From positions 1-42,019 of IMG/VR virus record IMGVR_UViG_3300034418_008782: 42,019 nt of DNA. The stretch is one strand, 5' to 3'. The DNA is from a virus. The notes below the pieces were generated by a model, which saw only the letters and a program-made list of their open reading frames with translations, was not told the DNA's origin and did no database searches. A program made the translations under genes and the position numbers. The number at the start of each line of letters is the position of its first letter. Position 1 is the stretch's first letter. This document shows, one piece after another, positions 1,549 to 6,883 of the stretch.

Positions 1549-1797
1549 ATGAACATTCTTGACGTTTATACTTTCTCCCCTGGTCTTCCTTATCAGGGGA
1601 GTTTAACTATACCTGGGCAATATCCTTTACACAGGTTTGCTCAAGTCTTAAATGTTACTAGAGGGGTCAGCCTTTTTGACCCTGACGACTATAAGAAGAA
1701 TGCAAATTGGAGTTATGATGGTGTTTCTGATGAGACGACTTTAGTTTTTGAAACTTGGACGGCAGGTTTTGATGCCAGTGATGATATACTCGCCTGA
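1549..1797 (+). CDS. Putative virion-associated protein (82 aa)
   Basis: The ATG follows the GGGTAAGACTAAG motif by about 20 nt. The protein is rich in aromatic residues, Pro and Gly with little charge, typical of a small structural or fibre-adaptor protein, but I do not recognise a family. Its last 26 nt overlap the start of the long repeat protein downstream in another frame. A separate small structural protein and an N-terminal piece joined by frameshifting are both possible; the first is simpler. Confidence 0.55.
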   Translation: MNILDVYTFSPGLPYQGSLTIPGQYPLHRFAQVLNVTRGVSLFDPDDYKKNANWSYDGVSDETTLVFETWTAGFDASDDILA

Positions 1798-4057
1798 AGG
1801 AGTGGGTGGTGGAGGTCCTGCTTCTAATGTGGCGGTTACAAACTTCCCAGTGTCACAGACAATTAACGGAACAGTCGGAGTTTCTGGCGAGGTAGAAGTT
1901 GTTAATGACTCCGGCAACCCTCTCCCTGTAACAGGAACCGTTGCTATAAGCAACTCCGAGGTAGAAATCTCTAATGACATCGGAAACCCGGTCCCGGTAA
2001 GTGGGACAGTTTCAGTTTCTAGTGATTCTCTAAACCCCGTCACGATTGCAGGGGATGTCACTATTGTTAATCCAGAAATTGAGATCAAAAATGACGTAGG
2101 GAACCCCGTTCCGGTAAGCGGAACCGTTGCCATTAGCAATGCAGAGCTGGAGATCTCTAACGATTCTGGCAACCCGGTCCCAGTAAGCGGTACTGTTGCT
2201 GTCAGTAACACTGAATTTGAGATCGTTAATGACACTGGGAATCCTATTCCAGTTAGTGGAACGGTTGCAGTTAGTAACACCGAATTTGAGATCGTTAACG
2301 ACACCGGGAATCCTATTCCAGTTAGTGGAACAGTTGCTATTAGCAATGGTTCGCTAGAGGTTTCCAATGACGCCGGCAACCCTCTTCCTGTCAGTGGACA
2401 AGTCACCGTTGCAACAGGTCCCTTAGATCCGATTTACGTTATCGCTGACCCCACTTTTCCGGTCCCCGTAACTGGGACGGTGGCTATTAGTAACCCTGAG
2501 CTAGAAATCACCAATGCTATTGGCAATCCGATCCCTGTTGTCTCCACGCAAAATAACCCAGTTATTGTTAATCAGGGACCCGCTAGTGCCGCCGGATTTG
2601 GTGAAAACCTAACTGCTGAACTAACACCGGTAGTTCAATTGGAAGCGATTTATGGTCTCGGCAACGAGATGGAAGATGAGTTCGAGCGCTTCTCCCAACT
2701 TGGAGGTGCAACAGGAACTAACGAATCTCTGTTCCAAGTCTCTTGCAGTGCCACAAACTTTAGTTATGGAGTTCTACGCTCTAGCAGATTCCTTCGCTAT
2801 AGACCAGGACAAAGTGCAACCGGTCGCTTCACTGCCGCATTTGGTGCTCCAGCTGCCAATGTTTCCCAAAGAGCTGGACTCTTCAATCAAGAAGCAGCTT
2901 GGATGGTGGGGTATAACGGGACCGATTTCGGTGTCCTTCACAGTTATGGAGCAAAGGCGGCGATTGTTCGTATCGTAGTTGTCAGCGGTCCTTCTAGCAA
3001 CACAGACCTCACAATCACATTTGCTGGTTTCCCTCTGACGCCTATCCCGTTAGTGGCTGGTGAAGACAGAGTGGAAACTGCGGCTAGGATCGCAAACTCT
3101 GGAGTGTTTGGTGCCGCTTGGAATGTGGAGCAGGTTGGAAGTACTGTGTTCTTGGTTTCTACGAACACAAACCCCCTATCTAACACCACTTTCACATACT
3201 CGCATTCAGACTCTGTCGGTTTAGCAATTTTGGATAGAGACGGTGTGTCTCCTACAGATGCGTGGACGCCTGCAGCATCCTTCAACGTGGACAAACTTGA
3301 CGGCAGCGGTCCGTCCGGTATGATCATAGACCCGACGAAGCTCAACGTGTTCCAGATTCGCTATAAGTGGCTGGGTGCTGGTGCCATCTCGTTCATGATC
3401 GAAGATTCTCTGACAGGGAACAATATTGAGTTCCACAGGATCCTTTGGTCCAACCAAAACAACGTCCCGCATGTAGCAAACCCCTCTATGAAGATCGGGT
3501 ACGTGTGCTATAACCTAGGGGGAGGAGTACAAACAGAGGTTACCGGGTCATCTATGATGCTAGCTGTTGACGGAAAGAGGGAACTGACTCACTTCCCGAA
3601 AGCAGTCGCTGTTTCTAAAACCGGACTTTCCAATGACAATGTTGATCCAGATGACATCCACCACATTGTAAGTATCCGCAACCCTCTCACAATTAGTGGC
3701 AAGATTAACACTAGAGAGCTGATCCTTCAAAATGCTTCACTTACTGCTGTCTCCAGTGACCCTACCAATTTCCTAATTTACTTGGACGCGGATCTAATCA
3801 GTGGATACCACATTTGGCAAACGCTTGCTAAGTCTAATGCTACATACTCAAACGTGGACGGAGAGATTGACGGAACTGCTTTCACACCTTTAGCCATTTC
3901 TACTGTCGTTGGTGGTGGCGTTTCTGGGGGAGGTAAAGACATTAGTCTTTTGGACTATGACATTGTCGTGCCCGCTGGCTCCACCATTAGCATTTGCGCA
4001 AGGAGCAGCACCAACATTACCGAACTATCTACTGCTATAACTTGGACTGTTGACTGA
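1772..4057 (+). CDS. Tail-fibre-like virion protein with 23-aa repeats
   Basis: About 761 aa. From roughly residue 30 to 270 it consists of imperfect units of about 23 residues of the form NDxGNPxPVSGTVAxSN followed by about seven variable residues, eight or more copies, a layout expected for an elongated beta-rich fibre shaft. After that the sequence is non-repetitive, Gly/Ser/Thr/Asn-rich and hydrophobic-alternating, ending in a beta-rich domain (TVD at the C-terminus) that could bind receptor or baseplate. The frame is open from a TTG at 1748, but ATG at 1772 or 1781 is the more likely start; neither has a strong Shine-Dalgarno. Fibre versus other surface virion protein cannot be settled from sequence. 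Confidence 0.7.
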   Translation: MPVMIYSPEGVGGGGPASNVAVTNFPVSQTINGTVGVSGEVEVVNDSGNPLPVTGTVAISNSEVEISNDIGNPVPVSGTVSVSSDSLNPVTIAGDVTIVNPEIEIKNDVGNPVPVSGTVAISNAELEISNDSGNPVPVSGTVAVSNTEFEIVNDTGNPIPVSGTVAVSNTEFEIVNDTGNPIPVSGTVAISNGSLEVSNDAGNPLPVSGQVTVATGPLDPIYVIADPTFPVPVTGTVAISNPELEITNAIGNPIPVVSTQNNPVIVNQGPASAAGFGENLTAELTPVVQLEAIYGLGNEMEDEFERFSQLGGATGTNESLFQVSCSATNFSYGVLRSSRFLRYRPGQSATGRFTAAFGAPAANVSQRAGLFNQEAAWMVGYNGTDFGVLHSYGAKAAIVRIVVVSGPSSNTDLTITFAGFPLTPIPLVAGEDRVETAARIANSGVFGAAWNVEQVGSTVFLVSTNTNPLSNTTFTYSHSDSVGLAILDRDGVSPTDAWTPAASFNVDKLDGSGPSGMIIDPTKLNVFQIRYKWLGAGAISFMIEDSLTGNNIEFHRILWSNQNNVPHVANPSMKIGYVCYNLGGGVQTEVTGSSMMLAVDGKRELTHFPKAVAVSKTGLSNDNVDPDDIHHIVSIRNPLTISGKINTRELILQNASLTAVSSDPTNFLIYLDADLISGYHIWQTLAKSNATYSNVDGEIDGTAFTPLAISTVVGGGVSGGGKDISLLDYDIVVPAGSTISICARSSTNITELSTAITWTVD
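1890..2560 (+). repeat. Tandem 69-bp coding repeats (23-aa units)
   Basis: Consecutive units translate to NDxGNPxPVSGTVAxSN plus a variable stretch. Two neighbouring units around 2200-2340 are nearly identical at nucleotide level (GGGAATCCTATTCCAGTTAG occurs twice, 66-69 bp apart), which points to recent duplication. Other units have diverged, and two are interrupted by longer spacers. Confidence 0.8.
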
Positions 4058-4113: not shown

Positions 4114-4347
4114 CGTTCATCGCCTCGCAAGCGACGGAAGTAGTTGACGCGCAACGGATTCAATCGTTGATCCCATGCCCATACTCTTAATGACATGCGT
4201 ACAAGTGAACGTCCTCGCAACGAGGGTCTATGACAACTCAATCCTTAAGGATTACGAGAAAATAGAGATCATTGCAGAACTTCAGAATTCTGCCGAGGAT
4301 CAACCTTGTAGAGTGGGCACGGGACGCAAACGTCATACGAAGGAACG
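4114..4347 (+). ncRNA. Glutamine-riboswitch-like RNA with large P3 insertion
   Basis: The core matches my knowledge of the glutamine riboswitch (glnA / Downstream-peptide motifs) of cyanobacteria and cyanophages. P1 pairs CGTTC (4114-4118) with GAACG (4343-4347). P2 pairs TCGC (4120-4123) with GCGA (4131-4134). The conserved GGAAGTAG is at 4136-4143 and GAAGGAACG at 4339-4347. P3 can form from GTTGACG (4143-4149) and CGTCATAC (4331-4338) with one bulged base. About 180 nt are inserted in the P3 loop and contain further inverted repeats: CAACG/CGTTG (4152-4169), CCTCG/CGAGG (4213-4225), AATCCTTAAGGATT (4240-4253) and GCAGAA/TTCTGC (4274-4293). A small peptide gene follows, as in the Downstream-peptide class. 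Ligand and switching mechanism are inferred. Confidence 0.7.
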
Positions 4348-4375
4348 TGAATGACAACCTCATTCCGTTTTTATC

Positions 4376-4516
4376 ATGGCACAAGTTACTTACCGTGGAG
4401 TGAAATACGATACAACTGAGTATCGTGACCGCCCCAGAATTGTTAGTTTCGTTGAAGAGAAGTACCGTGGCATTAAGCACATGGAAGCTCACTCTGTTAG
4501 GGAGGCTGCAAAATGA
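4376..4516 (+). CDS. DUF4278-type small peptide (46 aa)
   Basis: Begins MAQVTYRGVKYD; the TYRGVKY block is the hallmark of DUF4278, a family of small proteins found in cyanobacteria and cyanophages with no established biochemical function. It is the first gene after the glutamine-riboswitch-like RNA, so its expression probably responds to nitrogen status. Its stop overlaps the next start (ATGA). The family call is good; the function is unknown. Confidence 0.75.
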   Translation: MAQVTYRGVKYDTTEYRDRPRIVSFVEEKYRGIKHMEAHSVREAAK

Positions 4517-5324: not shown

Positions 5325-5581
5325 TGAGCGAGGAAGAATGCTGCAAAGTAAACATATTTGACTCTGCTGCCGACTCTGTGAAAAGAGTGATAAAAGACAG
5401 AAGGATAGTCACGGCTTCCCAACAAGCAGAGCGTTTGAGCATTTGTGTCCAATGCGAACACTTTTCTCAAGGAAACGCAGTATGTAAAAAATGCTGGTGC
5501 TTCCTCAAGCTAAAAACGCAGTTTGCTAACATGCGCTGCCCTATTGACAAATGGACGGAGATCGAAGATGTTCAAACATGA
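5324..5581 (+). CDS. Zinc-ribbon-like protein, DUF6171 type (85 aa)
   Basis: ATG at 5324 overlaps the previous stop; a GTG three bases upstream is less likely. Cys pairs CVQC (about 41-44) and CKKCWC (about 54-59), then a late Cys in MRCPIDKW, form the Cys-x2-Cys...Cys-x2-Cys-x-Cys-hydrophobic-LK...CPxxKW pattern of DUF6171-like small zinc proteins seen in phages. Metal binding is inferred; function is unknown. The 3' end overlaps the nuclease start by 14 nt. Confidence 0.7.
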   Translation: MSEEECCKVNIFDSAADSVKRVIKDRRIVTASQQAERLSICVQCEHFSQGNAVCKKCWCFLKLKTQFANMRCPIDKWTEIEDVQT

Positions 5582-5969
5582 ATACGTAGTAAAAGAAGTC
5601 ACACGAGTGGTTGATGGCGACACCGTTGATATTGTCCTTGATCTAGGTTTTGGACTGACAATGAAGCAGCGTTGCCGTATTGCTGGTATCGATACTCCTG
5701 AAAAGCGCACTCGTGATCTTGAAGAAAAGAAGTATGGTCTTGCCGCCACTAAGTATGCCGAAGAGTGGTTTGAGGCCAACAAAGATAAGTTAATCGTTAG
5801 AACAAAAGTCGAAGGTTCTAGTGGGAAGTACGGACGACTCCTGGGGTGGTTCTTCAACGACGAGACAGAAGTTTGCTTCAACGAACAAATCGTAGCTGAC
5901 GGATTGGCCTGGGAATACGATGGTGGCACTAAACACAAAGACCTTTCTACACTGAGGCTTCCTGAATGA
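5568..5969 (+). CDS. SNase-like (thermonuclease) endonuclease
   Basis: 133 aa, staphylococcal-nuclease OB-fold family; members cut DNA or RNA using Ca2+. The signature is visible: RVVDGDTVDI (13-22), RCRIAGIDTPE (35-45) with the catalytic Arg and Glu45 and metal-binding Asp42, and GKYGRLLGW (86-94) with the second catalytic Arg. No signal peptide, so it should act inside the cell, for example in host DNA breakdown. The start MFKHEY was chosen because upstream in-frame residues lie within the zinc-ribbon gene. Confidence 0.88.
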   Translation: MFKHEYVVKEVTRVVDGDTVDIVLDLGFGLTMKQRCRIAGIDTPEKRTRDLEEKKYGLAATKYAEEWFEANKDKLIVRTKVEGSSGKYGRLLGWFFNDETEVCFNEQIVADGLAWEYDGGTKHKDLSTLRLPE

Positions 5970-6510: not shown

Positions 6511-6553
6511 TCTACTCAAATACTTTTGGAGGTAATCAGTAAAACAATTGGGA

Positions 6554-6883
6554 ATGCACATCGTAGCGGACGTAACCAAGTGTTCGCAGCCTTGGAAGTT
6601 AGATGATGAGTATATCGTACTCAGCGTACTTACAGATGGGGCAATAAGTTGTGGAGCAACCATCCTAGGCAAACAGTCTCATAAGTTTACACCGCAAGGA
6701 GTGACTGCTATAATAATGCTAGCCGAGTCTCACATTTCTATCCACACATGGCCCGAAAATGGGTCGTACGCATTCGATGCTTATACTTGTGGTGACATGG
6801 ACTGTGAGTACGCTTTCAACAAAATCTTCACTTCTTTGGGAAGTGGGGACGTAAGCAAACATGTGCTGCATCGGTCACTATGA
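6554..6883 (+). CDS. speD: S-adenosylmethionine decarboxylase proenzyme
   Basis: 109 aa. Pyruvoyl enzyme that decarboxylates SAM for spermidine synthesis. The self-cleavage region LAESHISIHTWPE is intact: cleavage is expected between Glu58 and Ser59, making the pyruvoyl group from Ser59. His64 and Cys79 (AYTCGD) match the processing and catalytic residues of the bacterial class. Length fits the short prokaryotic form. GGAGG lies at 6529-6533; an in-frame TTG at 6548 is possible but the ATG at 6554 aligns with the usual start. SpeD is a recurrent cyanophage auxiliary gene; polyamines may help condense phage DNA. Confidence 0.93.
   Translation: MHIVADVTKCSQPWKLDDEYIVLSVLTDGAISCGATILGKQSHKFTPQGVTAIIMLAESHISIHTWPENGSYAFDAYTCGDMDCEYAFNKIFTSLGSGDVSKHVLHRSL

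Follow-up and report, generated by a model that had tools for sequence, protein, structure and literature searches.

Riboswitches are usually described as non-coding leaders ahead of a gene, and group I and II introns can carry protein genes in their peripheral loops. In the host, glutamine riboswitches of both types are ON switches whose usual targets are DUF4278 genes, and the DUF4278 peptides are similar to the N-terminal part of IF17, an inactivating factor of glutamine synthetase (PMC6316151). In the family description of the RF01704 (Downstream-peptide) RNAs, an ORF follows the motif (PMC2864571). In this work, we have analysed computationally an element at positions 4114–4347 of a viral DNA of 42,019 nucleotides (IMG/VR record IMGVR_UViG_3300034418_008782; this whole stretch is called here the window, and all parts of the element are on its plus strand). 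A preliminary description had seen in it a glutamine-riboswitch-like aptamer split by a structured insertion. We propose, with a probability of about 70%, that the element is a glutamine-riboswitch-type RNA in which two cores are joined by the helix P3, a protein gene lies in the loop of the helix P2΄, and two genes would be controlled in opposite directions.

The conserved blocks of a glutamine (glnA-type) aptamer are all present at 4114–4347 and in the canonical order, exactly where they had been placed before; a search of both strands finds this order a single time in the window and in none of 200 dinucleotide shuffles. The block CGTTCA (4114–4119) includes the 5΄ strand of P1, CGTTC (strand 1, 4114–4118), which makes 5 of 5 pairs with 4343–4347 and is invariant among 135 distinct spliced relatives. 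There follow the outer P2 hairpin TCGC..GCGA (TCGCctcgcaaGCGA, 4120–4134), which covaries in relatives, the J2/3 segment (CGGAAGTA, 4135–4142), which is the conserved core of the glutamine aptamer in RF01739 alignments, and the 5΄ strand of P3, GTTGACG (4143–4149). The 3΄ strand of P3 (CGTCATAC, 4331–4338), whose pairing is supported by covariation in relatives, lies 181 nt away, confirming the earlier estimate of about 180 nt, and the two strands form 7 pairs with one bulged T (GT.TGACG with CGTCA.T.AC). J3/1 (GAAG) and the 3΄ strand of P1 (GAACG, strand 4) complete the element as GAAGGAACG (4339–4347), and each of the helices P1, P2 and P3 can form in the window. By its sequence, then, the window element resembles a glutamine riboswitch aptamer whose P3 is split, with about 180 nt between the halves.

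An Rfam search of the window gave zero gathering-level matches: RF01739 scored 18.8 bits and covered the 5΄ half only (gathering threshold 35), and for RF01704 (glutamine riboswitch type 2) nothing was listed for this region even at E 10. However, short relatives with the same architecture and no ORF reach 39.6–43.6 bits with RF01739 across the whole outer aptamer, which makes the insert the probable reason for the low score; the covariance-model search that had been suggested thus left the window below threshold and brought its ORF-less relatives to it. The leader of the window has a predicted energy of -80.8 kcal/mol without P1 and -72.3 kcal/mol with P1. In this model the P1-free fold is preferred, as is expected for a ligand-stabilised state, and this is no proof of one.

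Within the split P3, the window insert holds a second three-way junction, aptamer-like and circularly permuted, made of the helices P1΄ and P2΄ and closed by P3. The P1΄ hairpin, CAACG-GATTCAAT-CGTTG (strands 2 and 3; 4152–4169), reads GAACG..CGTTC in nearly all relatives; in the window, and also in the locus L175, it shows a double compensatory change. The 5΄ arm of P2΄ (TCCCATGCCCA, 4171–4181) holds the start codon of a nested ORF and the 3΄ arm (TGGGCACGGGA, 4314–4324) lies within this ORF; the two arms make 10 pairs around one A.C mismatch (TCCC-TGCCCA..TGGGCA-GGGA), which falls on the A of the nested start codon. The inner junction, CGCAAA (4325–4330), is conserved in relatives. The inner core is devoid of GAAG and GUA and for this reason may bind nothing; it resembles the outer core copied with a circular permutation, which suggests that the double core derived from tandem aptamers. 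The nested ORF (59 aa, 4175–4354), in the P2΄ loop, would code for a PHROG_504-like small protein. The CCTCGCAACGAGG hairpin, taken in the preliminary description as an echo of P2, lies inside this coding sequence (..VLATRV..), and the relatives examined do not have it, so the likeness is most likely due to chance.

The comparison with related phages that had been called for showed that the double-core architecture is conserved in cyanophages: pattern scans, two of them with at least 120 matches each, placed it in viral contigs numbering well above one hundred. An exact scan of viral contigs (CGTTCA..GGAAGTAG..GAAGGAACG, gap of 160–210 nt) gave ten more loci, each having in the gap an ATG-started ORF of 50–57 aa whose TGA stop codon overlaps GAAGGAACG; the same scan for inserts of 205–235 gave no loci. 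A second scan, based on the short motif CGGAACGGANCGTTCATC from the 5΄ edge of the ORF, gave at least 120 matches. As the relatives were sampled by sequence patterns, conservation inside those patterns is conditioned by the sampling. Their common layout is, in order, the 5΄ strand of P1, A, P2, CG(G/C)AAGUA, the 5΄ strand of P3, CG, P1΄ (GAACG-loop-CGUUC), A, P2΄, CGCAAA, the 3΄ strand of P3, GAAG and the 3΄ strand of P1. When RF01739 is aligned with ORF-less members, the inner core appears as a 38-nt insertion in P3.

Among the matches listed for the second scan and the earlier loci, 22 inner P2΄ loops are short and 103 are long, and 95 of the 103 contain an ATG-initiated ORF that stops at one fixed position of the aptamer. 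This position is GAC-TGA/TAA-AGG-AACG, in the aptamer core, so these proteins have a C-terminus (..DAND or ..DAKAD) whose codons belong to the aptamer. In most of the remaining long loops, and likewise in the window, the ORF ends elsewhere and the 3΄ part of the aptamer is still conserved, which argues that this part is maintained for the RNA as well as for the protein. In total, 175 double-core loci were counted among the matches listed (about ten of them from scans requiring a long insert): 103 have the inner gene only, 34 both genes, 16 the outer gene only and 22 none, which gives 137 genes in the inner P2΄ and 50 in the outer P2. The gene often hosted by the outer P2 is a different small gene, with its start codon in or beside the P2 stem and, in many loci, its stop codon there as well. 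Recognisable single-core phage aptamers, by comparison, have a short P2 in 122 of 123 cases, four further pattern matches that look like chance not being counted; the sole single-core glutamine aptamer with an ORF in P2 is that of L285 (921–947 plus the upstream 190 nt).

A motif scan of cellular genomes gave 73 matches, mostly by chance, of which five are by their context real double-core loci (L202, L233, L235, L248 and L252) and probably represent phage DNA in the assemblies. DNA similar to the ORF-less element was found in 459 phage records, all from Synechococcus, Prochlorococcus or marine phages (limit of E 10, the weakest being uncertain). At about position 728 of L168, the arrangement CGTTCATCC-ORF-GACGCAAACGACTGAAGGAACG stands without a 5΄ core, that is, as the inner half alone.

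Do the helices covary across the genes that they enclose? For P2΄, 5.38 of 6 pairs form across the ORF, compared with 4.38 when the 3΄ arms are shuffled among loci (0 of 2000 shuffles as good), and on 46 clusters of less than 60% protein identity the values are 5.43 and 4.59 (0 of 2000); for the outer P2 across its ORF the counts are 0 of 2000 with all loci and 2 of 2000 with 11 clusters, and in all these shuffle counts relatedness is retained, clustering merely lowering it. The pairing of P3 in the relatives beats 5000 of 5000 shuffles (distinct combinations), one of its pairs (C.A or T.A) being formed in 47% of relatives only. P1 gives no covariation signal since it is invariant. Folded de novo with RNAalifold, 20 ORF-less members gave P1, P2, P1΄ and P2΄, and P3 was not recovered in this set. 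These alignments show long-range covariation of P2, P2΄ and P3 across genes. The double-core anatomy is well supported by comparison, and we infer ligand binding and regulation.

The four short strands could also pair in another way, 1 with 2 and 3 with 4, making two ordinary glutamine aptamers in tandem, with the gene in the P2 of the second; the nested fold would then be no more than an alternative. Tandem arrangements of glnA RNAs have been described (PMC2864571), and strands 1–4 read CGUUC/GAACG/CGUUC/GAACG in nearly all loci, so that the tandem and the nested pairings are both possible; furthermore, Rfam reaches threshold with the 5΄ half alone in L261 and with the 3΄ half alone in L027, L094 and L202, and L168 resembles a lone 3΄ half. 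However, P3 covaries between the halves, the 5΄ half of the AGTCG type is without a P3 partner of its own, and RNAalifold picks the nested fold over the tandem one. In the window and L175, strands 2 and 3 have changed together (CAACG/CGTTG) and strands 1 and 4 are unchanged, which fits only the pairing of 1 with 4 and of 2 with 3. We consider the tandem arrangement unlikely as a full account of the element, and the RNA may switch between the tandem and the nested folds.

Codon comparison shows purifying selection on the nested genes, the median pairwise dN/dS of their ORFs being 0.205 in frame and 0.745 one frame off. Two examples among the ORFs of the ten loci match PHROG_504 with E values of 2.2e-9 and 1.5e-6. 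In general, the outer genes match phrog_6471 and phrog_13397 and the inner genes phrog_504 and phrog_13397, three families without known function. The genomes of phages Syn33 and S-ShM2 have an annotation for the nested gene (T4-like GC 430), which comes after nrdB and before a small gene of GC 937. When a profile HMM made from 95 nested ORFs, several of which match PHROG_504, was run against the six-frame translation of the window after removal of the RNA-constrained C-terminus from the model, the nested ORF was the sole significant match (E 1.1e-8, the next being 0.88). PHROG_504 itself matches the window ORF weakly (E 0.044) and the relatives with E values down to 2.9e-23. On these profile matches, we take the window nested ORF to be a homolog of the nested ORFs of the relatives. 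A tblastn search with the window peptide found nothing relevant, phage DNA similarity to this region was confined to short matches at the start of the DUF4278 gene plus chance ones, and a LAGLIDADG match (E 0.12) was discarded as noise. The AlphaFold2 model of the window peptide is a two-helix hairpin (mean pLDDT 77), a shape so simple that structural comparison would tell little. Alignment A1, of the nested proteins, shows two cysteines that never vary (C8 and C45 in the numbering of the window peptide); they flank the predicted two-helix hairpin, which suggests a disulfide or a metal site. The window copy is divergent, with a bulge in P3 and a nested stop codon lying 7 nt past P1, outside the core.

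Downstream of the aptamer, as noted in the preliminary description, lies a DUF4278-like gene (46 aa, 4376–4516), which starts 29 nt after the aptamer and matches phrog_5049 (E 2.1e-11) and PF14105 (E 3.7e-4, below the curated cut-off). Just before it, folding revealed a terminator-like hairpin, GAAGGAACGTGAATGA-CAACC-TCATTCCGTTTTT (4339–4375), which uses the 3΄ strand of P1, ends in TTTTT just before the DUF4278 start and was not listed by an automatic terminator scan of the window. This hairpin has a predicted energy of -12.0 kcal/mol by itself, excludes P1 and is part of the minimum-energy fold. In the window, a -10 box is absent from the usual place, as is a Shine-Dalgarno sequence before the DUF4278 ATG. 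Of 161 loci in the relatives, 132 have a -10-like hexamer in the upstream 40 nt, with a sharp peak 13–14 nt before the RNA, which would place the transcript start at about P1; in most relatives, then, the aptamer probably starts the transcript. Among the matches listed, 163 of 175 downstream genes have a Shine-Dalgarno sequence, and 87 of 158 relatives carry downstream a complement of J2/3 of at least 5 nt (about 26 expected), often right before this Shine-Dalgarno. The nested gene is mostly without a canonical Shine-Dalgarno, the GGAG found in 68 of 137 belonging to the P1΄ hairpin, and in 116 of 132 inner genes at least one base of the nested AUG lies within the uninterrupted P2΄ stem.

The absence from the window of a -10 box at the usual place and of a Shine-Dalgarno at the DUF4278 gene, together with the divergent nested ORF, the low Rfam score and the shifted stop codon, could indicate that this copy is a decayed relic, the PHROG_504-like and DUF4278 genes being mere neighbours without glutamine control here. 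Decay should break the core nucleotides and the helices, yet every core nucleotide is in place and pairing is kept in P1, P1΄, P2΄ and P3, the compensated P1΄ and the P2΄ of 10 pairs among them, and the terminator-like hairpin competes with P1; we find a relic improbable, slightly more so than the tandem arrangement. A non-coding insertion, be it another sensing domain or a functional RNA inserted there, has very little chance of being correct and is largely refuted, for although the window insert folds better than its shuffles (z -3.3) and has several inverted repeats, the same site in relatives holds ORFs under purifying selection to which the window ORF is homologous, and the glutamine model is the only Rfam family to match at the insert, with no tRNA or tmRNA. 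The earlier suggestion of a second domain survives in the P1΄/P2΄ permuted junction, conserved in relatives, and fails in that the insert is mainly a protein-coding gene; those of a stabilising element or an inserted RNA fall for this same reason, homologs of the gene occupying the same place in relatives.

We return to the double-core RNA with its nested gene, for which we propose the following mechanism. The RNA would act both as a 5΄ leader and as a bicistronic mRNA. Glutamine would bind and stabilise the aptamer fold. In the window, the formation of P1 would disrupt the terminator-like hairpin built from its 3΄ strand, and the DUF4278 peptide would consequently be made at high glutamine. 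In many relatives, the J2/3 complement beside the downstream Shine-Dalgarno could provide an equivalent ON switch. With the nested start codon engaged in the P2΄ stem, folding should keep that gene repressed. In the other direction, ribosomes moving along the nested ORF would melt P2΄, P3 and finally the 3΄ strand of P1, resetting the sensor, so nested-gene translation and aptamer folding would be mutually exclusive. In the window the nested stop codon is in the 5΄ arm of the terminator-like hairpin, and nested translation could therefore promote read-through, in an attenuation-like manner. A more specific version, which we put forward only tentatively, is that one phage aptamer drives the two genes oppositely by clamping the embedded start codon while releasing the downstream gene, that each crossing ribosome resets the sensor, and that the double core serves as a platform for exchangeable small genes.

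The window also carries auxiliary metabolic genes typical of T4-like cyanophages. They are a plastocyanin family gene (676–999, PF00127), a 2Fe-2S ferredoxin (1214–1504, PF00111), an S-adenosylmethionine decarboxylase (6548–6883, PF02675) and an SNase-family nuclease (5523–5969, PF00565); an ORF of 769 aa (1748–4057) with N-terminal near-repeats (..NDxGNPxPVSGTVAxSN..) and zero Pfam matches is also present. In phage P-RSM6 (L260), the double-core riboswitch is followed after a few hundred bases by a strong manA RNA (1958–2143; RF01745, 188 bits), which precedes a transaldolase gene. In phage S-PM2 (L382, 701–802), a divergent, unannotated match to the ORF-less element lies just after SpeD and precedes small genes and thymidylate synthase; the window too carries speD.

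In a large group of marine cyanophages, the helices of this leader close across a conserved protein gene. If our proposal is true, translation and metabolite sensing would be coupled within one short RNA, phage gene expression would be linked to the nitrogen state of the host via DUF4278 peptides, and it would be explained why standard models miss many such riboswitches. The cultured isolates Syn33, S-ShM2 and S-SKS1 carry the arrangement, which makes it directly testable.

How does this RNA compare with known systems? A shared-P3 double core with embedded genes was absent from the Rfam matches and the open literature searched, and our search of the open-licence literature brought up no description of a gene lying within the hairpins of a riboswitch. 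With RF01739 it shares CGUUCA, P2, CGGAAGUA, P3, GAAGGAACG, the order of the three-way junction and the downstream DUF4278 gene; it differs in that P3 encloses a permuted second core and that P2΄, and often P2 too, holds a protein gene. Most relatives share with RF01704 the CGCAA-type J2/3 and a short downstream peptide gene, and L128 and L260 reach the RF01704 threshold over part of the RNA; compared with that family as described in PMC2864571, this RNA has in addition a second core and embedded genes. As in tandem riboswitches, there are two related aptamer-like cores per leader, here interlocked by a shared P3 and not side by side. Riboswitches with an upstream ORF, such as the Mycobacterium B12 system (PMC11260477), likewise join a ligand-sensing RNA and a small ORF, whereas here the gene is inside the aptamer hairpins and shares core nucleotides. 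As in group I and II introns, a protein gene is hosted in a loop of a structured RNA, but the host here is a riboswitch-type leader; no intron family was matched in the window by Rfam, and the nested ORF has no significant match to an endonuclease family. The outer core is of a known kind, and it is the shared-P3 double core with its embedded genes that sets this RNA apart from the glutamine riboswitches described above.
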